From a virus, in IMG/VR virus record IMGVR_UViG_3300030406_000983, positions 1-41,720 of that record: a DNA stretch of 41,720 nucleotides; one strand, 5' to 3'. Both the position numbers and the translations under genes were made by a program. The notes under the pieces were generated by a model. That model saw nothing but the letters and a program-made list of their open reading frames with translations, did no database searches and was not told the origin of the DNA. How positions within the stretch are numbered: position 1 is the stretch's first letter; each line of letters starts with the position of its first letter. This document shows, piece by piece, positions 3,716 to 40,804 of the stretch.

Positions 3716-3912
3716 AAAAGAAAAATACAATTACTAAACACGACATAAGACGTTCTATACAAAGTCTTTATGCTAGATTAGAATTTGCTACAGAAAGACT
3801 TAGGTTAACTGAAACTTTATTTAATGATTTTATTGAAATGCAGAAATTAGAAGATAAGTTTAGTAAGTTCTTAGATGGCAAATATAAACAGTCAGAACGT
3901 AAACAAAGCTGA
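3712..3912 (+). CDS. Small coiled-coil protein before TerL, 66 aa
   Basis: The start overlaps the previous stop (ATGA) and is preceded by GGAGA. The protein is basic at its N-terminus (KKKNTITKHDIRRS) and then forms one long heptad-like helix (about residues 15-55), including LRLTETLFNDFIEMQKLEDK, so a coiled-coil oligomer is likely. The last 38 bases overlap the start of the large terminase in another frame. I do not recognise it. A short DNA-binding or assembly factor would fit the charge pattern and place, but this is a guess. Confidence 0.55.
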   Translation: MKKKNTITKHDIRRSIQSLYARLEFATERLRLTETLFNDFIEMQKLEDKFSKFLDGKYKQSERKQS

Positions 3913-27013: not shown

Positions 27014-27625
27014 ATGGCAAGAAATATTTATAAATCAGCAATGTCCTCTTCTTTGGGAGCTGGTAAGTTAAGGGCAAATATGTATGACATTAGTTCTCTT
27101 GATACCCAAAAAGAAATAGAAGGCATGGAACTTAGAGTTGAATCCGAGAAATTAAATAAAACAATATCTACTTTATCTGATGCTCTAGCTTTATCTTCTA
27201 CTATTGCTGGTAGATATGGAGACATATCAGATGATATTGAAACATTAGAAGGCGAGTTTGGCGAAATGGAAAAACCAGATACTATGCTTGGAAAACTATT
27301 GCAATCTGCAAAAGTTGGTTTTGGAGTAGGTGAGTTTAAATTTGGAGATGAAACAATATCTGGTAGAGACATCGCACCTCAAGCTGCTAAGATTACTCAA
27401 CAAAATATGTATGAAGAAGCTCTTTCAAACATGACTAAATCTGATAGTGTCGTACCAAATCAAGATGTTATAAATAGGCAAAGGGAACAATTGGCAAATG
27501 CACAAGCATTGCAAACTGATAATGAAAGTTTTGATATGGATATGGATTATGAAGACGACATAAATGACTTTGATGATAGTCCAGAAGTTCAATCATACTT
27601 ACAACAAAGATATAGAATGAGATGA
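27014..27625 (+). CDS. Probable internal virion protein, 203 aa
   Basis: A 58-base gap without a clear ribosome binding site precedes it. The protein is helical and charged, with one short Gly/Ser region (TIAGRYGDISDD) and a very acidic C-terminal part (DMDMDYEDDINDFDDSPE, about 178-195). It heads the run of five genes up to 40804 that I read as the internal or ejection proteins. The family is not recognised. It could be a small core protein or an assembly factor of the inner virion. Confidence 0.5.
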   Translation: MARNIYKSAMSSSLGAGKLRANMYDISSLDTQKEIEGMELRVESEKLNKTISTLSDALALSSTIAGRYGDISDDIETLEGEFGEMEKPDTMLGKLLQSAKVGFGVGEFKFGDETISGRDIAPQAAKITQQNMYEEALSNMTKSDSVVPNQDVINRQREQLANAQALQTDNESFDMDMDYEDDINDFDDSPEVQSYLQQRYRMR

Positions 27626-28290
27626 CAATAGCAGAAAAACATTTATCAAAACATGGAAGATTCGGAGATACCGAAATAGTCAGTACATCTAGTGGTGAAC
27701 TGTGGCACGTTAATAAGTTTGAAAAAAAGTTAATGGATGATTATGGAGTTGTAGGAGAGAGGTTAGTTGATATATACGGAGCTGGTACAATTAATCCAGA
27801 AACAGGATTAAAAGAACAATATATACAAGCTATAGCAGCTGTAGGAAGTTTAGCTCTAGGAGCATATCAAGCATCTAAACAATCAAAGATGGAAAAAGCA
27901 GCTGCCAAAGAAAAGAAAAAACTAGCTCAACAACAATTAAGTAAACTTGATGAAACCGAATCTTTGTTAAGTGAACAAGTTCAATCGCAAATGAATCTAT
28001 TAGAAGAAGAATCTGAAATGCAAAAAGAACAATTAACAGAGCAATTAGAAGAAATAAACGAAGGAATATCTAATACAAAAGGGAAAGTTGGATTTGCATA
28101 TTCTGGAGATATTGAAAACCAAGAGAAGGATGCTATTGAAGGAGTTAGAGATAGGGAAGAAAGTTTAATGGCAACTTACGGAAATAAAGTCGGTGAGGTT
28201 ATGGGTATGTTTAATTCTGAAAAAGCAAGGATTAAAGCAGAAAGAGCAAGACTTGATGCTGAAATAGATTTATATAATAAGATGGTATAA
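27622..28290 (+). CDS. Probable ejection protein, gp14-like, 222 aa
   Basis: Starts by ATGA overlap. A hydrophobic segment, YIQAIAAVGSLALGAYQAS (about residues 67-85), precedes a long coiled coil rich in Glu, Gln and Lys (about 88-220). One helix that can insert in a membrane plus a coiled coil, near the tail and just before the giant internal protein, is the profile of T7 gp14, an ejected protein that makes a channel in the outer membrane. Size is also close. The relation is by layout and place, not by clear sequence identity. Confidence 0.55.
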   Translation: MTIAEKHLSKHGRFGDTEIVSTSSGELWHVNKFEKKLMDDYGVVGERLVDIYGAGTINPETGLKEQYIQAIAAVGSLALGAYQASKQSKMEKAAAKEKKKLAQQQLSKLDETESLLSEQVQSQMNLLEEESEMQKEQLTEQLEEINEGISNTKGKVGFAYSGDIENQEKDAIEGVRDREESLMATYGNKVGEVMGMFNSEKARIKAERARLDAEIDLYNKMV

Positions 28291-29372
28291 TGGCTACACC
28301 TTTACAAGCACTAGAAAGAATGTTGCTATCTCAAGAAAGAAGAGAGCAATCAAGAGTTCAAGAAACACTAGGCATGATGCAATTAGCACAACAAGCTGCT
28401 AACCAGAAAAGACAATTAGATATAGCCGAAGCTAAACAAGATATAGAAATGTTTGGAACTAACCTTGAGTTAATCCAAAAATCTAATGAAACAATGAAGT
28501 TAAGAAGTGCTGAAAACTTTCTACAACAAACTGGACTAGCTACTTTATATGCAAAACATGAAGAAAAAGAAGATGGTCTAAAAGATTTTGCAAATGATTT
28601 ACAAGAGGACTTTGATATAGACTCGACCATAGCTGGTAGTTTAGCAACCGCTACTTGGTCTGCATATAAACAAAATAATCCAAATGCTATAGTTTCTATA
28701 GGTTCTAAGTTACATTATCTCGACCAACCAGATGTAATACCAACTGCATATGATAAAAAACTATCAAAGGCTTTTACTCAATTAGGTTATATACAACAAA
28801 CATCTGCCGCTACGCAAGGAGACTTTCTTGATTTAAATAGAGATGCTATAAATACATTTAAAACAATGAGAAAAACTTTAGATAACGAAGTTAATCTAGC
28901 AAAAGAAGTATCACAGTTTGCTACTGGCGATTTTAAAATTCAAACTGAGTTTGATATTATAGATGAAAGTTTAAAGAAAATTGAATTAGATAAGACTTCT
29001 ACTACTCCAGTAGATAAGTCGTTTATTGGTTATGAAACAACTATTCCACTAGATAAGTCAATTCAATTACTACAAAAAGAAGCTAAGTCAATGAATGACA
29101 TAGTAAAAACAAAAGAGTTAGAATTAAGAGAATATAAAAATGCTCTAAATAATTTTAGAATTTTACAGAGAGCTGGAGTTGAAACTTCTCAGAAAGACAA
29201 AGAATTGTATAGTGACAATAGTGCTTCATTAATATTACAAGAATTGCAAAATGAAATAAACAGTGCTAAAAAAGATGCCTTTGAAGCTAGGAAAGTTGAG
29301 ACTAGAGTTTCTGATGCTTTTAGGGAAGAAACAGATGAAAGACTTGGCACTATAGATATGTTTGGTTTTTAA
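28290..29372 (+). CDS. Probable internal virion protein, coiled coil, 360 aa
   Basis: Starts by TAATG overlap. The sequence is nearly all alpha-helical and Gln/Glu/Lys-rich, beginning LQALERMLLSQERREQSRVQ and continuing with QQAANQKRQLDIAEAKQDIE. There is no membrane helix or catalytic motif. A second coiled coil lies at about 250-345. By position between gp14-like and giant genes it resembles the middle member of podovirus ejection sets (gp15-like), but only by place and helical character. Confidence 0.5.
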   Translation: MATPLQALERMLLSQERREQSRVQETLGMMQLAQQAANQKRQLDIAEAKQDIEMFGTNLELIQKSNETMKLRSAENFLQQTGLATLYAKHEEKEDGLKDFANDLQEDFDIDSTIAGSLATATWSAYKQNNPNAIVSIGSKLHYLDQPDVIPTAYDKKLSKAFTQLGYIQQTSAATQGDFLDLNRDAINTFKTMRKTLDNEVNLAKEVSQFATGDFKIQTEFDIIDESLKKIELDKTSTTPVDKSFIGYETTIPLDKSIQLLQKEAKSMNDIVKTKELELREYKNALNNFRILQRAGVETSQKDKELYSDNSASLILQELQNEINSAKKDAFEARKVETRVSDAFREETDERLGTIDMFGF

Positions 29373-29378
29373 TAATTA

Positions 29379-32300
29379 ATGAGCGAATATACAAAAAAGT
29401 TACTAGAAGATTTTAGGAAAGAACTATATTCTAATAGAACAACTCCTGCTAGTCCTACATTACCTACCGCTCCAAGAAGTCAACCTTCTCCGTTAGGCAC
29501 TCTTAGACAAGAAAAATCCCTGTATGATATGCTATCTACAGGAGTATCTCCAGATGATGATGGTGAAAAAGTATCTGGTGTATTGAATGGTATAGGTGCT
29601 TTACTGTGGAACGCTGCTGATAGTGCAGCTTTGGGTATACCAAGTATAGTGTTTGAACAAACAACTGGTAGAAAGAGTGATTATGATATAATGAACAACA
29701 AAACTGAAGGTATGGCAACCTTTGGTAAAGTAGTTGGTCAAGGAATAGGTTTCCTTGCTCCAATGAAATATGTTGGTCTGGGTATAAAAGCTGGTGTTTC
29801 AGCTATTAATAAATTAGGAACTACTAGAATTATTGGGGAAGCATCTGAAGCAGCTGCTAAGTTTGCAAGTAAAAGTAAATTTGGTTTAGAAAGAGAATTA
29901 GTAGAGGATTCTGTAAGAAGTGGATTAAAATCTAAATCATTGAAGGGTCCTCAAGGTGCTATATCTAAATACGAAATAAGTATGGATGAAATTAAAAAAG
30001 TAGAAGGGGAGGTCCGAGGTAGTGTTTTTAATTCACTTAAAAGAGACTTTCCAGAAGCTGCTGATGACACTCTATTACGAATATCTGATGAAGCTACTAA
30101 ACTTTTAAAACAACCGGGTATACATATAAATAATCTTACTGACATTATTGGTAAATCTTTAAATGCTACATTCAGAGCTAGTGATTCCAATAAGATTACA
30201 AGATACTTTGCAAGAGCAGCTGACCAAGCTGTTTTATTTAGTGTATACAATTTAATGCAAGATGGTGTTTATTCTATTGCTGGCCAGAAAGAATTTGACC
30301 CAGCTAAAGATGTTGGTGATGCTATGTTATTTTCTGTTGCTCTACCTTTTATTGATATGATAGGTGGAGGTGGTAAAGTTCCAGTTATGAGAACTGCTAA
30401 TCAATTAAGAAAAGCATTAAGAAAAACAAAAACAAGAAACTATGATGACCTAACAGAAGCCCAAGCAAATGGATTACTTAGAGTATTAACAAGGGATAAT
30501 TATTTACAAGATAGTGTAATAGGCCAATTAGCTGGTAAATATAGATTTAAAACTATTGAGAAAGAAAAAGCTGTTGGTGCTATTAAAGAAATAATGAAAG
30601 AAGTAAAACCAGAAGTTGTCTGGAAAAGTTTCTACAAGGAAGCCAAAGAAGACGTTACTGCATCTTTAGGTAGAATGTTACTTGGTGGTTTATACTTTGA
30701 TTTTCATACTCTACTTGATACTGATTTATTATTGGCAATGGAAGGCGAGGAACTAGCAGCTCATTTTATTACTGGAGCATTTTTCTCTAGAATGAAAAGA
30801 CCTTTGTTTGAAGAAAATTACAAACAAATAAATAGTGACTTTACAGATAGGATAAAAGCTCTTAACTACTTAGGACTTGATGCTAAAGCATTGGAACATT
30901 ATGGCAGGGCGTTTAATGATGATATACATTTTGCAGCTGCTTATTCTGGAATAATTAAAGACCCAGTAGTTAGGCAAATAGAACAAATATTTGAAACTGA
31001 TAATCATAGAAAACAAACAAAAACTAAAGATGGTAAGGGAGTTCCTAGAAAAGCAGGTAGCGTTCCTAACTCTAGAATGGCTTTATATGCATTTGATTTG
31101 TATAAGATAGCAGCTTTACAAAAAAACTTAACAGACTCTAGAGTTGGAGAAAATTTTGTTGATATAGACAATCTTACGGCATCTCAAATATCTGATATTG
31201 CATCTAAGGTTCAGAATATAGAAATAACACAAGGGCCATTAAAAGGTGAAAAGTTAACGATAGAAAACTTTGAGACTTGGAAAAATGGATTAATGGATGA
31301 TGCATTAACAAATGTTGGAAAACTACATATAGATACAATAAGAAGTATAGCAAAAGAACTAGGTATACAACATGATGCTGATTATGAGTTTAACTTTGAC
31401 AAACCATTTAAGATTGCAGATATATCAATGGGTGATACAATAATTAATACTGATAGTGACTACCATGAAATATCTCAGTTTCTAAAGTTAAGAGCTGAGT
31501 TAGAAGCTGCTGGCCTTGTAGAAACTATGAATGTTCCAGAAAGTGCTAAATTGAAATTAGAACTATTAAAGAACACTAGTGAAACAAAAGAAAAAATAAC
31601 TGGAAACATTAAGGCAATGCTAGATACTCTGAGGTATGAAAACTATGGAGAAAATTATCCAGAAGAGATTCTTCCAAACTCTAATGCTTTTATATATGCA
31701 TTACAAAGACATAAGTATGCTAAGAAAAGGGATGCCTTATTTAACATAGCCGAAGGTAACACAAAGAATTTATCAGAAGCAGATAAAAATTTATATGGTA
31801 TACTTCAAAATACATTTGGAAATAAAGTTCCACTTATAAATAATACAGATAGACTTGAGTTTAAATTTGAAAATAAAGATGAAAAACAGATTGATGATAT
31901 AAAAAAGAGTGATGAATATGATAGAATTGAATATCAAATAAATCTTATTGCTCAAATATGGGGTCAAGGAAGTGGCAAATCTAAGGGTGTATTAAAGCCA
32001 GGCGAGCAAAATGCAATTGATTATGACAAAGCAAAACAACTTGTAGATGTTTTTCAAAAACAAGGATACTCAATAAACCAAGACTTTGTAAGAGAACAAA
32101 AAAGATGGCATTATGCTAAAATATTAAACTCTCCAAACATAACTCCTAATCACATATCTATTATAGAAAATATACAAGTGAACGATTTTGCTAAAATAGA
32201 AGATGTCAATGGAAGAAAAATTTTAAGTATACCATCATATCAACAAGTAGAAGCATTTTTAAATGATTCAGAAAGGTCTGGTCTTAGTAGGGAAGAAGCA

Positions 32301-35300
32301 GTTGTTTATGCAGATAGATATGAAAAATCATTACAGGCATTAGCAGTTGTAACTGGTGACTTTGTACAAATAAAACCACAGATTGCTCTAGACCAAAGTC
32401 AGAATACTGTATCAGCTATAGATGAAATGTATAGATTGACTACAGATTTTAATAGAGAAGTATTTTCTGAATACAAACAAATTATAGATGGACTAGACCA
32501 ACAAACTCAAAAGTTAGATGACGTTACAGATTTAATAAATAAACTATACATTAGTGATGAAGAAGGTGGTATCATTGGTGATAGGAAACAAATAACAGAC
32601 CAAGACGAACTTACACAACTTAATAATCAATTAGAAAAAATATTAGATAATGAAACAGGTTTATTGTCTAGTGAGTTTTTAGTAAAGATAAATTCTTTAA
32701 GAGATAATATTAATCAAGAGTATGAAAATGACCAAGTGTCTCGTCAAGTAGATAGTTTAGCAAAAGAAATAGAAAGAACTATTATATCAAATGCTAATAT
32801 AAATAAAAAACAATCAATGGTTTTAGATACATTTTTATTAGATGCTTCAACTAATGCAGATGATAGTATGCAATTTAAAAGAAGAACAGATAGAATAACT
32901 TCTAAGTTTGCAACTTATCTAAGAAACAAACATGGTAATGATTTACAACTTCCAGAAGCTCCTACTTTTAATGATGTGATAAGGGAAGCTAATAGAAGAG
33001 GTGATTCTAATTATATATTAAAAAGACTAACTCAATATCTTGAGGTGTTTAGAAGAGGATATAACGAAGAAAAATATTTTGAAATACAAGCTGCTGAAGC
33101 TCAGACAATAGCAGACTTTTCTACATTGAATATTCAACCATCCGATGCTATATCTCCTACTACAATATCTGTAAAGTATGAAAGATTTAATCCCATGTTA
33201 AAACAAGATTCACTTAGGGAGATGATTGAAAATGTTAGTTTGTCTTTAAGTGAGTCTGGTTTATCTGGTTTTAAAACTGCTTTTAAAGATATAAGAAGCG
33301 AAGTTGAAAGAGCATTGATAACAAAACATACCTATGAAGATGATGAAGGTCTTCAGCAATTTAATCCAGAATCTTATAATCAAGAACTAAATCAATTTAA
33401 TAAAGAGGTACTGCCTCAATTGTATAATAATGTACTAGGTAGAGATTATATAAAATCAGTTACTCTTTCTCAATCTGATGGAACTGGTGTATTTGAAATA
33501 TCAAAAAGACCTGTTGGTAAAGGAGTTTTATCTGAATTTGCTAGGGAACTTAGAGATACAAATGACCCAGATAATAACATTGATTTACTTATTATAGATG
33601 CAACTGCTACTTGGGGAGGTAGAAAGACTGACTTATTAGAAGTTCCAGATATGGTTCGTGTTATTGAAGAAGCTCAAATGTTTTCTAGGGGAACTGAAGA
33701 TATTAGAGACATGATAAAAGGTGAGGAAAGTTCTAGGCAAGAACAAGATATTCAACCAATGTCTGATTTTATTCCTATTATTATTAGTCAAAACACAGTT
33801 ATAGCAATACCTAGAAGTCAAATTATAGATGGTCAATTATCTAAAAGATTTAAATCTTGGTATGATTCTAAACTTGAATCTCTTGATTCTAAAAGTAAAA
33901 CATATAGGAATTATACTAAAATATATGGAGACTTTGTTAAGGATACTGAATCTGCTGTTTCCAAATCTGACGCTAGGCAGATGATTAGAGCAATGTACTT
34001 TGATAAAATAAATTCAAGTGAGTTCAACAATATAGTTACAGAAGCTAATACTCCATCTAGAGCAAATGAAATGGCAGCTAGTTTCTTCAAATATGTTACT
34101 CTTGGAGAAGCTACTGGTGCAAAAGTTCAAGCTAATAAACAATTGCTTGAGTTGTTAAAGGGTGAAGACTTTCTATCTGAAGACCAAAATAAATACATAG
34201 ATGAGTATTTAAATGATGAGGGATTTAACATTGTTACCATTGCAGATGAAACTGCAGCTCTATCAAACCCACTTACTGCTTCTAATCTTTACAAAGATAT
34301 AATAAAGAAAAGTGGTTACGATAAGGATTTAATAAAAGAAAATGTTGATGCAGTAGGAGAAGATAAAATATTTAAAAGTATAGTTAGTTCTTCTATGAAC
34401 GCTCAATCTTATTTGTCTCACAAAGCTGCTAGTATATTATACCTTCACAAAGGAAGAGATGCTACAGATAGTGAAAATAAACACAGTACGGCAGGTGTTA
34501 AACCAACTGTTCACTACAATGAGGGAATGAATAGTATACTGATGAAAACTAATTTTGTTTATGACCCTAAAATTGCAGACCTAATGGAAGCAAAGGGTGT
34601 AGACATATTAACAACTGAATCTGCAACTAAGGCATTTTATAAGGATAAGGTATCATTGAGTTCTGATGATATAAAAGGAATGGATGTAGTTAACGATGTT
34701 AATATTAGTCGTAGTGTATTAGACAAAGCAGGGGATGATAATAAAGCAAAGATAACATTAGAAAATATATTTTTAGGTAAAGTTGAGGATAGAAAGAAAG
34801 TTGCAAATATAACTTATGCAATTACTGATTTTTTAGATAGGAGTGGTTATGAATCTTTTAGAGATGATTTTGTAAACTACCAAGAAAAACTAAAAGCATA
34901 CTTTAGTATTATTGGACAGGTCTCAAAACAGAATGGCAATAGGCAAGCAGCTGCTGAATATTTTTATAGAATATTAAGAGAAGACAATGCATTATTTGAA
35001 GACTCTACTAATGGAATAAATCAAAAACTTTTATCTTTAGGATTAGACCCTAACTCTGAATTTATTAGGTCTGGATTAAGAAATGTTGCTACACAAGCTT
35101 TAATTAATGGAGTAAGAAGTCCTAAGACTGCTGGAGCATCATACTCTATACTAATACCATATTTAGAAGGTTCAGTACCAATGTATCAAAATGTTGGAGA
35201 TGCTAACAAGAGAGTACAAATAGCTATTGGCGGAAAGAAACTATCATACTCAGATAGATTTACAACTATGCAAGATGTTGAAAAAATACAATATGTATTA

Positions 35301-38105
35301 GAAGTTAATAGGAACAATAAAAAAAGAGATGTTCAAGTAAGTAGAATTGGTAAAAAGTTTATAGTAAATGACCCATACAAAGAACTAACTGTTAATGATT
35401 TAAAAAAAGAAATAGCACAAATACAAAGAGTTGAAGAAGGTCTTGGTGACAAAAGAACTATGAAAACATTGTTTGACCAGTTTAATGATATAAACAAGAG
35501 GTCCGATACAAAATACTTTTTGGAAAGTTTGTCTTTAAGGATGCCTAATCTTGGAGGCGATGTTGCAATACATAAGGTAGAAGGATTTTATGATAAAGAA
35601 CAGGGTAATGTTGTTGGTGTAAACATATATGATATAGCGCAAACACATCAAGCTGACTTCGATGTTGATGCTATGTTTAACTACAATAGGAAACCTACAA
35701 AGTTTACTAACTCTATATGGAAAGACTTAGGTTCATCTGTAGATGCTTATATATTTCCTACTGATTTATCTTCTATGGATATTTTTGGTTTTGGAAATGC
35801 AGCTGATGGTGAAGTAGTGAAAGCTGGTAAGGGTACTGGATATACTGACAATTTATTTGTACATATGCAAGATTATCAACAATCAAAAAGAAATTTTGGA
35901 GTTGCTAAAAAGTTATCTAATGAGTTATCTTTTTTCTTAAGAGAACCAGATTTAATAAACATGGATAACTTAGGTGTCGAAATTATTAAAAAAGGCACAA
36001 AAGAATACAAAGACTTTTTACAAGCATATAAAAATACATTACAATCTATTATTGATGCAGCTAAAAAACCAAATTGGGCAAGTAGAGCAAAGCAAGGTCA
36101 AATACAAGATTATATATTGTTTGGAGATAAACCAACTGATTATAATTTAGATAATGAAATTTCAAACTTTGGGCAAGAAACTTTTAAAGGATTCTTCCAA
36201 CTAAAAGGAGACAATTTAGAAATTAAAAAAGACATTATAAAAGAAATGTTAAGAGTTAAATCTAAATCTCAAAGAATACTTACGGATGTTTTTGATGCAG
36301 CTGGAAGAAGGCCACCAGATGCTAATGAAATAGGAATGGCTAGAGCTGAAATAAATTCTTTTTATTCTAATCCTTCTAAATTTTTATATGATAGATTGCA
36401 ATTTAAATATAGGTCTATGGGTCAAAGTGGAGCATCGCTTCTTTCAAGATTGAATAATCAGTTTTTTGGTGAGTCATTGAGAAGTATTAAAGATTACAAA
36501 TCTTTATTTCAAAAAAGTGTTGGTAAAACATTGCAACCAACTAACGAACCTATAGTTATAGAAAAAAATAATATTAAAGATATTAAAGATTCTACAATAT
36601 CTGGTTTCTTATTAGACCAAATGACTCAAGATAAATTAAGTATTGAATCTTATTCTGATAAAAGCACTAAACAAGGAAGACTAGCTACAAAAGATTTAGA
36701 ATCTATTATGGATAGATTAAATGCTTTTAGGTCAATATCTCCAGATGCTGATTATCGAGAGTTTGCAAAACAATTAGATGATGAAAATGGTATTATAGCC
36801 GATACTAATTTAAGAATATATTTAAATAAGTATAGTTCTAATAGCGTTTCCGAGCAAGATATTAAACAATACTCTTTATTGCACTCAGCGTTAACCAAGC
36901 AAAGGTCTTCATTGCAAAGATTTATTAGAAGAGCTGATAGAAATCAAAGCGATTCTCTATTAAGAGCAAAAGATAAATTAAAATCAATTCATCAATTGTT
37001 AGATTATTTACACGAAAAAGAATCAGAGGTTATTAAGAATAATATTACAGACCCAAAAGGTTTTTATAAAGTAAGAACTAAAAATATAACAATGGGAACT
37101 AGGGGTACTATATATAATAATAATAAAAGTAAACCTTCATATGTATACAAAGAAATTAAAAGTGATGATGGTAGAACATTTTTTAAAGAAGCTGGTTTTA
37201 TATCCCCATCTAGTAAGTATACATTCGAGGGTGGTAATTATTATATAATAGACAATCCAATAAGATATGTTGATTTAAATAAAAAAGAATATATAGATGC
37301 TATTTCAATGTTGATGATAACTGGAAATGTTGAAGTAAGGCATTTAGGTATAGACCCAGCAAGAGAAGAATCGTTCATAGCTGATTTCCAAAAGCTAAAT
37401 AAAATGCTCGGTGGTCTTGTTCAAACAACTTACAATGAAAGTAGAAACTCTCCTTTTGCTAAAGAAAATTGGCAAATATCAAGAGACATAGAGGATAGAC
37501 TTGTTTCTGATTTTATAACAAAATATTCAGATGGAGAGAAACTTAATGCATCCGAATCTCAATCTGCTTTTAATAATTTAATTAGATATATGTTAAAACC
37601 TCAATTGCAATTTGGAGACATAGCATTTGCAAAAAATACTAATGTTAAAATGCCTGGCCTTAAACAAAATAAAAGATTGGGCAATGCAGTATTTAGACAT
37701 CTAAGCAATAATAATAAGGATGACATACTAGAAGATATAGTAAGAAACTATGGAGCTGAATTTAGAAGAAGGTATGATGGTGTTCATAGTGAGCAAGAAT
37801 CAAAGTTTTACAGAAGTGATTTATATGCAATGGACAATAGTTTTTATAGGACATATAGTGACCCAGCATTAGAATATGCTATAACAAATAGATTGTTGTA
37901 TGATAGCCCTGCTTTAGCAGCTCATTTTAGACATTCTATTGGTAGATTAGGTAACACATCTAAAACCTTTTATGATAAAGAAGGTAATTATAATGTACTG
38001 TTTAAGTATGGGAATTATAAAGATATAGATGTTCAAACAAGACTTAATGTTGATGACAAAGAAAGAATAATTGAAAATAAAGATTTATTGGAGTGTTATA
38101 GATAA
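29379..38105 (+). CDS. Giant virion protein with RNA-polymerase-like active site
   Basis: 2908 residues. The N-terminus has a Pro-rich part (21-38) and hydrophobic patches (66-92, 112-144), then long helical regions. The key block is residues 2054-2097: R2054-M-P-N, 39 residues on QADFDVDAMF with Asp2093, Asp2095 and Asp2097. In cellular RNA polymerase beta-prime the same order is R-A-P-T ... NADFDGDQM, 35 residues apart, where the aspartates bind catalytic magnesium. Virion RNA polymerases of crAss-like phages use a DxDxD version. Other supporting parts are GVDILTTESATKAF (1740-1753) with Lys1751, where a beta-type lysine barrel might lie, and SIIDAAKKPNW around 2226. It could be a single-chain polymerase ejected into the host to transcribe early genes. 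No T7- or N4-type polymerase motif was seen. It overlaps the next gene by one base. Confidence 0.75.
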   Translation: MSEYTKKLLEDFRKELYSNRTTPASPTLPTAPRSQPSPLGTLRQEKSLYDMLSTGVSPDDDGEKVSGVLNGIGALLWNAADSAALGIPSIVFEQTTGRKSDYDIMNNKTEGMATFGKVVGQGIGFLAPMKYVGLGIKAGVSAINKLGTTRIIGEASEAAAKFASKSKFGLERELVEDSVRSGLKSKSLKGPQGAISKYEISMDEIKKVEGEVRGSVFNSLKRDFPEAADDTLLRISDEATKLLKQPGIHINNLTDIIGKSLNATFRASDSNKITRYFARAADQAVLFSVYNLMQDGVYSIAGQKEFDPAKDVGDAMLFSVALPFIDMIGGGGKVPVMRTANQLRKALRKTKTRNYDDLTEAQANGLLRVLTRDNYLQDSVIGQLAGKYRFKTIEKEKAVGAIKEIMKEVKPEVVWKSFYKEAKEDVTASLGRMLLGGLYFDFHTLLDTDLLLAMEGEELAAHFITGAFFSRMKRPLFEENYKQINSDFTDRIKALNYLGLDAKALEHYGRAFNDDIHFAAAYSGIIKDPVVRQIEQIFETDNHRKQTKTKDGKGVPRKAGSVPNSRMALYAFDLYKIAALQKNLTDSRVGENFVDIDNLTASQISDIASKVQNIEITQGPLKGEKLTIENFETWKNGLMDDALTNVGKLHIDTIRSIAKELGIQHDADYEFNFDKPFKIADISMGDTIINTDSDYHEISQFLKLRAELEAAGLVETMNVPESAKLKLELLKNTSETKEKITGNIKAMLDTLRYENYGENYPEEILPNSNAFIYALQRHKYAKKRDALFNIAEGNTKNLSEADKNLYGILQNTFGNKVPLINNTDRLEFKFENKDEKQIDDIKKSDEYDRIEYQINLIAQIWGQGSGKSKGVLKPGEQNAIDYDKAKQLVDVFQKQGYSINQDFVREQKRWHYAKILNSPNITPNHISIIENIQVNDFAKIEDVNGRKILSIPSYQQVEAFLNDSERSGLSREEAVVYADRYEKSLQALAVVTGDFVQIKPQIALDQSQNTVSAIDEMYRLTTDFNREVFSEYKQIIDGLDQQTQKLDDVTDLINKLYISDEEGGIIGDRKQITDQDELTQLNNQLEKILDNETGLLSSEFLVKINSLRDNINQEYENDQVSRQVDSLAKEIERTIISNANINKKQSMVLDTFLLDASTNADDSMQFKRRTDRITSKFATYLRNKHGNDLQLPEAPTFNDVIREANRRGDSNYILKRLTQYLEVFRRGYNEEKYFEIQAAEAQTIADFSTLNIQPSDAISPTTISVKYERFNPMLKQDSLREMIENVSLSLSESGLSGFKTAFKDIRSEVERALITKHTYEDDEGLQQFNPESYNQELNQFNKEVLPQLYNNVLGRDYIKSVTLSQSDGTGVFEISKRPVGKGVLSEFARELRDTNDPDNNIDLLIIDATATWGGRKTDLLEVPDMVRVIEEAQMFSRGTEDIRDMIKGEESSRQEQDIQPMSDFIPIIISQNTVIAIPRSQIIDGQLSKRFKSWYDSKLESLDSKSKTYRNYTKIYGDFVKDTESAVSKSDARQMIRAMYFDKINSSEFNNIVTEANTPSRANEMAASFFKYVTLGEATGAKVQANKQLLELLKGEDFLSEDQNKYIDEYLNDEGFNIVTIADETAALSNPLTASNLYKDIIKKSGYDKDLIKENVDAVGEDKIFKSIVSSSMNAQSYLSHKAASILYLHKGRDATDSENKHSTAGVKPTVHYNEGMNSILMKTNFVYDPKIADLMEAKGVDILTTESATKAFYKDKVSLSSDDIKGMDVVNDVNISRSVLDKAGDDNKAKITLENIFLGKVEDRKKVANITYAITDFLDRSGYESFRDDFVNYQEKLKAYFSIIGQVSKQNGNRQAAAEYFYRILREDNALFEDSTNGINQKLLSLGLDPNSEFIRSGLRNVATQALINGVRSPKTAGASYSILIPYLEGSVPMYQNVGDANKRVQIAIGGKKLSYSDRFTTMQDVEKIQYVLEVNRNNKKRDVQVSRIGKKFIVNDPYKELTVNDLKKEIAQIQRVEEGLGDKRTMKTLFDQFNDINKRSDTKYFLESLSLRMPNLGGDVAIHKVEGFYDKEQGNVVGVNIYDIAQTHQADFDVDAMFNYNRKPTKFTNSIWKDLGSSVDAYIFPTDLSSMDIFGFGNAADGEVVKAGKGTGYTDNLFVHMQDYQQSKRNFGVAKKLSNELSFFLREPDLINMDNLGVEIIKKGTKEYKDFLQAYKNTLQSIIDAAKKPNWASRAKQGQIQDYILFGDKPTDYNLDNEISNFGQETFKGFFQLKGDNLEIKKDIIKEMLRVKSKSQRILTDVFDAAGRRPPDANEIGMARAEINSFYSNPSKFLYDRLQFKYRSMGQSGASLLSRLNNQFFGESLRSIKDYKSLFQKSVGKTLQPTNEPIVIEKNNIKDIKDSTISGFLLDQMTQDKLSIESYSDKSTKQGRLATKDLESIMDRLNAFRSISPDADYREFAKQLDDENGIIADTNLRIYLNKYSSNSVSEQDIKQYSLLHSALTKQRSSLQRFIRRADRNQSDSLLRAKDKLKSIHQLLDYLHEKESEVIKNNITDPKGFYKVRTKNITMGTRGTIYNNNKSKPSYVYKEIKSDDGRTFFKEAGFISPSSKYTFEGGNYYIIDNPIRYVDLNKKEYIDAISMLMITGNVEVRHLGIDPAREESFIADFQKLNKMLGGLVQTTYNESRNSPFAKENWQISRDIEDRLVSDFITKYSDGEKLNASESQSAFNNLIRYMLKPQLQFGDIAFAKNTNVKMPGLKQNKRLGNAVFRHLSNNNKDDILEDIVRNYGAEFRRRYDGVHSEQESKFYRSDLYAMDNSFYRTYSDPALEYAITNRLLYDSPALAAHFRHSIGRLGNTSKTFYDKEGNYNVLFKYGNYKDIDVQTRLNVDDKERIIENKDLLECYR

Positions 38106-40804
38106 TGTCTCAAATCGCACAATGTACAACAATAGAAGAAAAGCAATTAGTAACAAAGCAAAATCTAGATTTACTTAGAAGACTTTACAATGGTGAAAAT
38201 GCTACTATAGAAGGAACTAAATATAATCTTGGAGATACTTTAAAAACACAATACGGTGATATAGATTCCGAAAGTGGTAGAAGAATGTTTGAAATTATTG
38301 TAGATAGGGGAACTTATAAACCAGCGATTGATTCTTTTACTGGATTTACTGATGGAGATTTTAGAAGAATTAAAAATGAATTAATTAGAGAAGCTAGAAA
38401 TTTAAAGAATCCTAAAATTAGTGTATTGGAAAAGAATTTATTTGTAAGGCGTGGTGTTATGAATAAATATGCTATAACAAAATACATCAATGGAGAGATA
38501 AATAATGCAGCTAACTACGAGAGAACACAGTTTTCTACATTTCTTAAAGCAAACCAAGAGATAATGAAGCTATTAAAAGCTGATGCTATTATGAATAGAG
38601 GTGATACAAGATTTAGGTTGGGTGTAAAATCAGTAAGTGATTTAGAAAAACTAGAAAACGATTTAACTATAGCTGCTAACAATCCACAATCTCCAGAACA
38701 AGCACAAAGAGTAATGGAAATATCTAATCAAATGGCAGAGATATTTAAGTCTGATGGAGGCATGCCCCTTCAAGAACTTCGTATGTTTTTAGAAGGTGAG
38801 TTAGAACAAAAAAATGGTGCTTATTTTAAATACTTAGATGATGGTACAAGAGTTCAAATAGCTGATGAGGTTGTCAAAGCTGGTAAGATAGGAAGAAGAT
38901 TATTAAACGATATGGGTGATGTTCTTATAAATGGATTAAAACAACATAAGAAAGTAATAAGACAATCATATCTTAATAGTACCAAAGACTCCGCTTTATT
39001 GCTTCCTAATGGGGATAAAGTTAAAAGGTATGAGGAAACTATAGACAGTCAAATAAAAGCAGTGCAAGAGGGAGTTAAGGGTGGTAATTATTTTCCTCAT
39101 TATTTAATAGAATCATTTCTAAATGTAGAAAAGATAATGGATAATGCAGAAAAAAATAAATATCAAGATATTGATTCAGACTTAAATGACCTTACCAATA
39201 TATTTACAAAAATGTCTAATGAAATAGGAACACCAAAGAGTGCTTTGTTTAGAGGTGATATAGCATTTGAAAACTACCAGAAAAATCCTATGGCAGTATT
39301 AAGAAAGTATTCACTAGATGCTATTGCTTTTAATAAAACTAATTACTTGAAGAATATAATGTTTGAAGGACTAAGAGGTTTGCCAAAAGATTCTGACGTT
39401 GCTCAAGGATTAGGTGATTACATACTAGATACATATACAGTTGCAGAAAAAGGATATTCAGATAGACCTTCTTGGGTTAATAAGACAGTAAGAACATTAA
39501 CAGGCGTTCAGTTCTTGAGTAAGTTAGGTTTCGGTATAGGTACTGCTGCTAGAAATACATTATCTGGTATGTACTATTTACAAGGAGTTGGTAATAGAGC
39601 ATTTGTTAAGTATCTAAGAGAGTATGAATTATCTAAAGACCAGAAGATATATGGTGAGGAAGGTAAGGAAAAGTCTCTTGCAGACATAATTACTGCTGTA
39701 GAAAAAGAACAAGGTTTTAAGTTTGAAGATATGGCATCTCCGTTATTCACAGAAGGACTTGTTCAAACTGAAGGTGTAAGACAAAAAGACATAGAAGTAA
39801 AACAAGATGGTGATGGAAACTTTAAACTTCAATACAAAGATGGTAAGAACTGGAGAGCATTTGATTCTGTAATGACATCAGCAGCTGGTAAGGGTGCGAT
39901 ATTCCAAAGGGTAACAGAGAATTTTTTAAGAAAACATATGTTTAGATACAGTTTTATTTCAAAGTTTAAAGAGATGAAATCTGGAGGATTAAAGAATCAA
40001 CAATCTATAAACATAGCAAAGAAACACGCTTTGGATATGGTTAATAAATATGCATTTGAATATTCTCCATCTCAGAAAGCACCAATAATAGGTGGAACTA
40101 AAAGTGGATTAGGTGCATTTGGGCAAGTAGCATTTCAGTTTATGCATTACCCAATGTCTTTTTTACAATTACAATCTGAAGTATTAAGAAAATCTAAAGA
40201 CGCTGTTATAGCTGGTCAATGGGATTCTCCAGACCTTCATGTTCCATTAAGATTCGCAGGTTTATATTTATTTACAGAAATGATGAGTGGTGTATTGAAT
40301 CTTGATTTACAAAGACTAATGGAAAATGATACAGTAGAAAGAATTAAAACACTTAAACAAGGATTGGAAGGGGAAGACGTTAAAGGTAGAGGTTTTCTTG
40401 GACCGACAGTTGGTGAATTATTTTACTATTCAACATTGTTTGATTGGGTAAAAACACCAGACAACCTAGCTGCTCAAATGATTGTAGGTTATAATGATGC
40501 TTATGGTTTAACTGATGAGCAGAAACGTGCTAGGTTATTATCTTCATTAAATGTACAGGCATCTAAGTTTATAAACAAAGATTATAAAGCACTAAGAACT
40601 GGTAATGGATGGGATTTGTTAATGCATGAGTTTGGATTGTATCCAAATAAAAGAACCAGAGAAATGAGAAGAGCAGAACCATTGAGAACATTGCTACCTC
40701 CAGTAAAGAAGAAAAAGAAATCTAAAAAGAATCAACCTGTAATAGATAGTAAGAAGAATCCTCAAGAGGAACTTACTAAACTCTACAGAGCGATGGGGAT
40801 TTAA
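38105..40804 (+). CDS. Probable second large ejection protein, 899 aa
   Basis: Starts by TAATG overlap with the giant gene, so both are made in a fixed ratio. In some relatives the two could be one protein. The sequence is helical and charged for 450 residues, then has hydrophobic parts: FGIGTAARNTLSGMYYLQGV (around 475) and FQFMHYPMSFLQLQSE (around 677), then LRFAGLYLFTEMMSGVLNL (around 720). Such segments suit a protein that enters or crosses the cell envelope. The C-terminus has a Lys-run (PPVKKKKKSKKNQP, about 858-871). No lytic transglycosylase or polymerase motif was found. It is the last gene of the late block and probably builds the ejection channel with the giant protein. Confidence 0.6.
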   Translation: MSQIAQCTTIEEKQLVTKQNLDLLRRLYNGENATIEGTKYNLGDTLKTQYGDIDSESGRRMFEIIVDRGTYKPAIDSFTGFTDGDFRRIKNELIREARNLKNPKISVLEKNLFVRRGVMNKYAITKYINGEINNAANYERTQFSTFLKANQEIMKLLKADAIMNRGDTRFRLGVKSVSDLEKLENDLTIAANNPQSPEQAQRVMEISNQMAEIFKSDGGMPLQELRMFLEGELEQKNGAYFKYLDDGTRVQIADEVVKAGKIGRRLLNDMGDVLINGLKQHKKVIRQSYLNSTKDSALLLPNGDKVKRYEETIDSQIKAVQEGVKGGNYFPHYLIESFLNVEKIMDNAEKNKYQDIDSDLNDLTNIFTKMSNEIGTPKSALFRGDIAFENYQKNPMAVLRKYSLDAIAFNKTNYLKNIMFEGLRGLPKDSDVAQGLGDYILDTYTVAEKGYSDRPSWVNKTVRTLTGVQFLSKLGFGIGTAARNTLSGMYYLQGVGNRAFVKYLREYELSKDQKIYGEEGKEKSLADIITAVEKEQGFKFEDMASPLFTEGLVQTEGVRQKDIEVKQDGDGNFKLQYKDGKNWRAFDSVMTSAAGKGAIFQRVTENFLRKHMFRYSFISKFKEMKSGGLKNQQSINIAKKHALDMVNKYAFEYSPSQKAPIIGGTKSGLGAFGQVAFQFMHYPMSFLQLQSEVLRKSKDAVIAGQWDSPDLHVPLRFAGLYLFTEMMSGVLNLDLQRLMENDTVERIKTLKQGLEGEDVKGRGFLGPTVGELFYYSTLFDWVKTPDNLAAQMIVGYNDAYGLTDEQKRARLLSSLNVQASKFINKDYKALRTGNGWDLLMHEFGLYPNKRTREMRRAEPLRTLLPPVKKKKKSKKNQPVIDSKKNPQEELTKLYRAMGI

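Follow-up and report, generated by a model that had tools for sequence, protein, structure and literature searches.

A giant phage protein, very likely a single-chain two-barrel RNA polymerase, with one cysteine near its C-terminus

Probable polymerase gene, neighbouring genes and relatives

The window, meaning the whole stretch of DNA analysed here, covers bases 1–41,720 of a virus record that is 51,698 bases long. The lysine segment under study lies inside an open reading frame (ORF) of 2,908 residues, which is followed by a second large gene, here called the companion. The locus contains the following features:

29379..38105, + strand: giant ORF of 2908 aa, very likely a polymerase, ending in its sole cysteine
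Residues 1–1430, + strand: N-terminal module of unknown fold, part of the 2908-aa ORF
Residues about 1440–2600, + strand: predicted two-barrel RNA polymerase core, part of the 2908-aa ORF
38105..40804, + strand: companion gene, 899 aa, whose only cysteine is residue 7

The TerS, TerL and portal genes lie upstream on the same strand, in a co-directed series of genes that the polymerase gene and its companion close. Among the signature structural genes, only these three were assigned, through matches to broad PHROGs. Three co-directed genes (203, 222 and 360 aa; 27014–29372) immediately precede the polymerase gene and have neither a PHROG match nor a cysteine; they may encode further cargo or tail proteins. 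ORF translations of locus L002 contain X residues near 3,720–3,730 (about 41,720 of the record), which implies a short N run in the record just beyond the end of the window, likely a scaffold join.

No significant Pfam or PHROG family was found for the 2908-aa protein (best two PHROG matches, E = 0.14 and 0.2), and tblastn against 50,697 phage records (INPHARED) returned no significant relative. A direct scan of IMG/VR with a 901-aa piece of the giant protein found no relatives. Pfam/PHROG hits of single family members appear to be chance. Relatives were recovered from IMG/VR mostly via the neighbouring companion gene, which is better conserved than the polymerase: a search with this gene gave 13 IMG/VR loci, and the companion used as a profile gave 46. 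The Asp motif taken from the first alignment gave 20 loci. A DNA pattern for ADFDxDAM returned a mixed set of loci from viral contigs; tblastn identified only L022 and L074 among them as relatives, and both contigs were also found by other means. Searching bacterial genomes with the companion profile revealed no relative.

In relatives with enough flanking sequence, the companion adjoins a giant ORF upstream, of about 2,700–3,070 aa unless cut by a contig end. After removal of duplicates, 32 giant proteins including that of the window were aligned, with a pairwise identity of 17% (median) and 14% (minimum). For 14 of the 32, the companion gene was the only route of discovery, and no polymerase motif entered the search. 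Two unnamed entries of a viral structure library, A0A516L9L2 (E = 4.6e-30) and A0A516M3R5 (E = 4.6e-22), match our model and likely belong to the same polymerase family. A marine origin of these phages is inferred from the source of related contigs and remains untested. Some distant relatives (L011, L014, L143, L144, L146, L148 and L153) bear a conserved reverse-strand protein of 582–603 aa downstream, containing MI[KR]E[FY]AF, which was not seen in the window.

Invariant lysines and the DxDxD motif

According to the original prediction, the Asp barrel is preceded by a first barrel of the QDE-1/crAss type that carries invariant lysines. The two peptides on which it was based were correctly located, NSILMKTNFVYDPKIADLM at residues 1718–1736 (34530–34586) and GVDILTTESATKAFYKDK at residues 1740–1757 (34596–34649), and its numbering of K1723, K1751, K1755, K1757 and D2093 held. 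So did the stated distance of about 340 residues to D2093 (342 from K1751). The conserved residues of this region are:

34089..34091, + strand: K1571, invariant in 32/32; in a predicted helix ahead of the lysine barrel in both models
34500..34502, + strand: K1708, invariant in 32/32; in predicted strand 1707–1715, 15 residues before K1723
34545..34547, + strand: K1723, invariant in 32/32; at the end of predicted strand 1718–1723
34629..34631, + strand: K1751 of SAxK, invariant in 32/32; in predicted strand 1750–1752, aligned by hhalign to the crAss K1065 segment
35655..35669, + strand: DFDVD (D2093, D2095, D2097), putative metal-binding DxDxD; all three Asp in 32/32

The window protein contains 251 lysines. 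Only four of them, K1571, K1708, K1723 and K1751, are invariant in all 32 proteins, and these span 181 residues (1571–1751). With a median identity of 17%, such a concentration exceeds chance. D2093, D2095, D2097 and Q2091 are likewise kept in 32/32, and S1748 is Ser in 30 proteins and Thr in the other two. Altogether about 15 of the 2908 residues are invariant across the alignment, nearly all of them within the predicted active centre. All 14 relatives found through the companion alone retain the lysines and Asp residues; as they were collected without any polymerase motif, they constitute a held-out and fair test of the prediction.

Conservation of the lysines thus removes one of the outcomes that would have refuted the lysine barrel. 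Of the candidates put forward, K1723 and K1751 held as barrel lysines, while K1755 and K1757 vary freely across the 32 relatives and are ruled out. K1708 had been overlooked; the interval originally proposed opens exactly at its codon. The proposed motif D.....SA.K also held: K1751 is the last residue of SAxK and aligns with the crAss segment whose final residue is gp66 K1065. The lysines had been considered a weaker motif than the Asp block, which was not borne out, both being invariant in 32/32.

It could be argued that the protein has a structural or ejection role and no longer polymerises, with these Lys and Asp residues left over. In favour of this, DxDxD tolerates different residues between its Asp positions (DFDVD, DNDGD, DGDGD), and there are no activity data. 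Against it, the catalytic Asp and the four lysines are kept in every protein at about 17% median identity while nearly all else drifts, and selection for catalysis is the simple reading of this retention. We therefore regard the remnant explanation as very unlikely and retain the polymerase reading.

An aromatic residue does not always occupy the second position of DxDxD, as seen in DHDGD, DMDGD, DGDGD and DNDGD (L177, L178, L181, L184, L185 and L186). Motif searches of the DFDGD type therefore miss such members.

Predicted fold and comparison with known polymerases

Two AlphaFold2 models were calculated. The core model (residues 1440–2600, 18 sequences) reached a pLDDT of 75.8 and a pTM of 0.74, and the focused model (residues 1555–2200, 32 sequences) a pLDDT of 81.8 and a pTM of 0.81. 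The following elements were assigned:

34176..34775, + strand: predicted lysine barrel (DPBB-B like), residues 1600–1799, from strand pattern and structural matches; edges approximate
35124..35693, + strand: predicted Asp barrel (DPBB-A like), residues 1916–2105, from the models and VIA-align; hhalign to the crAss Asp barrel 86–91%
35850..35942, + strand: candidate bridge helix, residues 2158–2188, a 31-residue helix after the Asp barrel; identity inferred from position

The lysine region is predicted as strand-strand-helix-strand, with helix 1730–1738 between the K1723 and K1751 strands in the focused model. A simple helical bundle, the other outcome that would have refuted the lysine barrel, is hence rejected by the AlphaFold model. 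Local confidence in the focused model is moderate at K1708 and K1723 (block means 67 and 72). In the core model, helix 2158–2188 is followed by further helices in an order that would fit a bridge helix and trigger loop, as judged without superposition. The helix carrying K1571 is possibly a duplex-binding helix; this role is inferred from the domain order of known enzymes, in which such a helix precedes the lysine barrel (PMC10770324).

The top PDB match in Foldseek was 6vr4, the gp66 polymerase of crAss-type phage phi14:2, for both the core model (E = 9.6e-8) and the focused model (E = 6.7e-12); two QDE-1 enzymes came next for the focused model (E = 1.4e-5 and 9.9e-5). VIA-align gave QDE-1 (Z = 15.5, 397 aligned residues, r.m.s.d. 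5.2), RDR2 (Z = 13.2), gp66 (Z = 11.3, 488 aligned) and P23-45 gp96 (Z = 10.8, 249 aligned, r.m.s.d. 3.6). The matched spans in Foldseek and VIA-align take in both barrels. All listed top matches are two-barrel enzymes; the absence of a T7-type match among them falls short of proof. Three features of a two-barrel (DPBB) RNA polymerase are seen: both barrels are present, in predicted models only, DxDxD lies in the second barrel, and paired invariant lysines (32/32) lie in the other.

A comparison set of 12 crAss-type phages, in phi14:2 numbering, was used to examine the correspondence with gp66 (KC821624 gp077). K1012, K1027, K1065 and three Asp of gp66 are invariant in 12/12 crAss phages. The spacing of 15 between K1012 and K1027 equals that between K1708 and K1723, and the distance to the first Asp is 296 residues from K1065 in gp66 and 342 from K1751. 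In hhalign, the lysine segments of the two families matched at 86% probability (E = 4.9e-6) and the Asp segments at 86% (E = 4.8e-6), whereas swapped controls, pairing lysine with Asp segments, gave 0.07 and 0.17%. An earlier, smaller crAss set had given 60% for the lysine and 91% for the Asp segments. The lysine alignment is limited to 24 columns around K1751, so the matching of K1708 and K1723 with gp66 rests on order and spacing. K1708, K1723 and K1751 are thus taken to correspond to K1012, K1027 and K1065 by order and partly by alignment, without a lysine-to-lysine superposition.

The reading of this region as a first barrel is supported because conservation, profile–profile alignment and the two structure models agree. 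Invariance, predicted fold and correspondence with the crAss enzyme are shown by these data. Beyond the motif segments, hhalign of the whole core to crAss was weak (17%), and the family profile found no sequence-level match to any solved structure among PDB chains, 6vr4 included. As tblastn and the family profile detect no full-protein similarity, we do not file the protein in the gp66 family; the link to the crAss enzyme rests on motifs and predicted fold. The polymerase forms a new family of the known two-barrel kind, and a search of the two-barrel RNA polymerase literature retrieved no paper whose title or opening abstract describes it.

The likeness to gp66 includes a single chain, a lysine barrel before the Asp barrel, a lysine triplet with equal first spacing, the best fold match and a cysteine at the boundary with the next giant protein. 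As for differences, there is no detectable full-length sequence similarity, the window protein bears an N-terminal module of about 1430 aa on the same chain, its Asp motif reads HQADFDVDAM as opposed to GSDFDIDKM in gp66, the companion is shorter (about 900 aa), and the record of 51.7 kb, possibly incomplete, compares with about 100 kb in crAss phages. Neither the N-terminal module compared with crAss gp47-like proteins (hhalign 0.84%) nor the companion compared with crAss gp49-like proteins (0.25%) gave a significant match, and a single three-module chain common to both groups is hence not shown.

The RNA-interference polymerases QDE-1 and RDR2 share the two-barrel single-chain core, and QDE-1 gave the highest Z of the focused model, but these enzymes are eukaryotic, have no virion context and are only about 10–13% identical over the aligned residues. 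The P23-45 RNA polymerases, gp96 and the gp64-type non-virion enzyme, are single-chain two-barrel enzymes of phages (VIA-align Z = 10.8 and 11.2). P23-45 gp96 is part of a giant virion protein (PMC10770324), in which the N-terminal polymerase is fused to the tape measure; in contrast, the polymerase of the window follows a large N-terminal module, and its gene looks like a cargo gene. N4 gp50 is a giant ejected polymerase with an N-terminal module, an RNA polymerase and a C-terminal module (PMC12633501). It resembles the window protein in being giant, modular and free of internal cysteine, but lacks a terminal cysteine, as do its partners gp51 and gp52, which are also cysteine-free. The N4 gp50 fold is of the T7 type, not two-barrel.

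Taken together, the giant protein is very likely a single-chain two-barrel DNA-dependent RNA polymerase, with its activity and the roles of its residues inferred. In the second barrel, the catalytic Mg2+ would be held by the Asp residues of D2093-x-D-x-D2097. K1723 and K1751, with K1708 and perhaps K1571, would point into the active site from the first barrel and bind template or hybrid, like the paired lysines of cellular enzymes. In two-barrel polymerases, DPBB-B provides two DNA-binding lysines directed at the active site (PMC4996933). For these enzymes it is established that Mg2+ catalysis takes place at DxDxD and that lysines sit on the barrel opposite; here this is inferred by analogy. 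The protein would represent a single-chain two-barrel RNA polymerase family that had not been assigned before, for which 32 diverged sequences provide a near-minimal invariant set of active-centre residues.

Terminal cysteines and proposed cargo ejection

The giant protein and its companion each contain a single cysteine, located on either side of the break between the two genes:

38094..38096, + strand: C2906, the only cysteine of the giant protein, third from the C-terminus
38123..38125, + strand: companion C7, proposed partner of C2906; pairing inferred

Judging from the mean of 85 other ORFs at the same loci, a protein of 2,908 residues should hold about 22 cysteines. In 31/31 aligned giant proteins with a C-terminus there is a single cysteine, and it falls within the last four residues; the 32nd is cut by a contig end and was excluded. 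A separate count by locus, which omits three of the 34 companion loci for want of upstream flank, found the sole cysteine within the last five residues in 31/31 giant proteins. The companions of 32 of the 34 non-duplicate loci have a single cysteine 3–12 residues from a start codon, as determined by a script with a 15-codon limit. Of the two misses, L184 fits if its start is MPVGC, in which case its other cysteine falls in the leader, and L178 remains a miss with an N-terminus that seems broken or shifted. In the 85 control ORFs, a cysteine occurred in the last four residues in none and in the first 12 in three. Companions in this control analysis were partly chosen by their early cysteine, and the 34-locus count is the fair one.

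It is likely that the polymerase is packaged in the virion and ejected; this is inferred, and there is no evidence of transcription or of its presence in particles. The protein would be packed in the head, ejected with the DNA and transcribe early genes. The inference draws on gene position, the polymerase gene closing the structural run next to the gene of another large conserved protein; on the size and modular build of the protein, which recall N4 gp50 and crAss cargo; and on the complete lack of internal cysteine. An N4-like virion RNA polymerase is devoid of cysteine, and this absence has been suggested as a requirement for its entry into the cell (PMC3715699).

Alternatively, the protein could be a two-barrel polymerase acting in the infected cell, or a PolD-like replicative polymerase. 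Archaeal PolD has the same two-barrel core (PMC4996933), P23-45 and similar phages also possess non-virion two-barrel RNA polymerases (PMC10770324), and no direct virion proteomics exists for this virus. However, the nearest folds of the model are RNA polymerases, with the virion enzyme gp66 first; the gene ends the co-directed terminase/portal run beside a companion conserved in relatives with enough flank; and internal cysteine is absent in 31/31, parallel to the cysteine-free N4-like enzyme. This alternative appears unlikely, and a virion RNA polymerase remains our preferred reading.

Terminal cysteines also occur at cargo breaks in crAss phages. In phi14:2, three consecutive giant proteins carry cysteines at −1 and 3 across one break and at −2 and 3 across the other (negative positions counted from the C-terminus), and none elsewhere. 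In crAss001, gp47 has a cysteine at −3, gp50 at 5 and −9 with one more inside, and gp49 at 5; gp47 retains its C-terminal cysteine even though its gene and that of gp50 lie on different strands. DAC15, LMMB, cr55, Fpv1 and cr118 obey the same rule. Where modules are fused, the outer cysteine is missing: cr55, Fpv1 and cr118 have the first module fused to the polymerase and lack the N-terminal cysteine of the polymerase chain, and LMMB has the last module fused and lacks the C-terminal one. Five further phages (cr50, cr126, cr109, cr11 and cr8) all match a prediction written before they were read. In total, a cysteine pair is present at 14/14 breaks between giant cargo genes in 12 phages.

This count covers breaks of which both sides were read, and one of them, gp47/gp50 of crAss001, separates genes that are not neighbours. 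The RNA polymerases of DAC15 and cr126 have the N-terminal cysteine, and their upstream partners are not among the proteins read. Only cr55 and Fpv1, both nearly cysteine-free overall, demonstrate a fused junction without cysteine; the exact junction was not located in cr118, cr50 and cr109. With 15 cysteines in the cr8 polymerase, crAss proteins are not always cysteine-poor. N4 gp50, gp51 and gp52 contain no cysteine at all.

The simplest account of these data is a disulfide link between consecutive ejected proteins. The C-terminal cysteine of the polymerase would pair with the N-terminal cysteine of the companion, and both would travel as one chain. This is inferred without biochemical evidence; we see it as equally capable of proving right or wrong, and it is the least certain step of the proposed explanation. 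A bolder reading, on which the evidence leaves us evenly divided, is that disulfides at each cargo break staple the giant ejected proteins of phages together in head-to-tail order. A cysteine in the last 1–9 residues of one cargo protein would pair with one in the first 3–12 of the next, and the stapled cargo would thread through the tail as one continuous chain. The reducing cytosol would then open the disulfide and free the RNA polymerase, and natural gene fusions would substitute for the staple. As part of this reading, the rule would be common to two very distant phage groups, the crAss phages and the window family, a notion for which the balance of support is similarly level. In crAss001 particles, disulfide bonds are present between tail proteins and vertex proteins (PMC10172136).

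The terminal cysteines may instead bind metal or lipid, or serve as an anchor to some other protein of the virion or host, without pairing with each other. Pairing has not been observed, the N-terminal cysteine could be modified, and the ends may be flexible. On the other hand, two distant phage groups have the two cysteines together where one giant cargo protein ends and the next begins, the cargo chain lacks them at its outer ends, and other ORFs of the same loci rarely have cysteines at these positions. The cysteine retained by crAss001 gp47 on the other strand argues against an effect of translation or gene overlap. We consider non-pairing roles slightly the weaker explanation and keep the disulfide staple as our working model.

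We found no description of the terminal-cysteine pattern in the literature searched, which did not cover the main gp66 paper (10.1038/s41586-020-2921-5). In crAss001, the order of ejection is likely controlled by packing and by the way cargo proteins interact with one another (PMC10172136), and the relevant sections of that study do not name the interaction controlling it. The cysteine pattern bears on how several giant proteins leave the phage head in order through a narrow tail. It makes this question cheaply testable, crAss phages being cultivable, and we judge it more important than the new polymerase family. The crAss loci showing cysteines at cargo breaks are L155, L156, L199–L205 and L207–L211, with the cysteine missing at the outer ends of fused chains.
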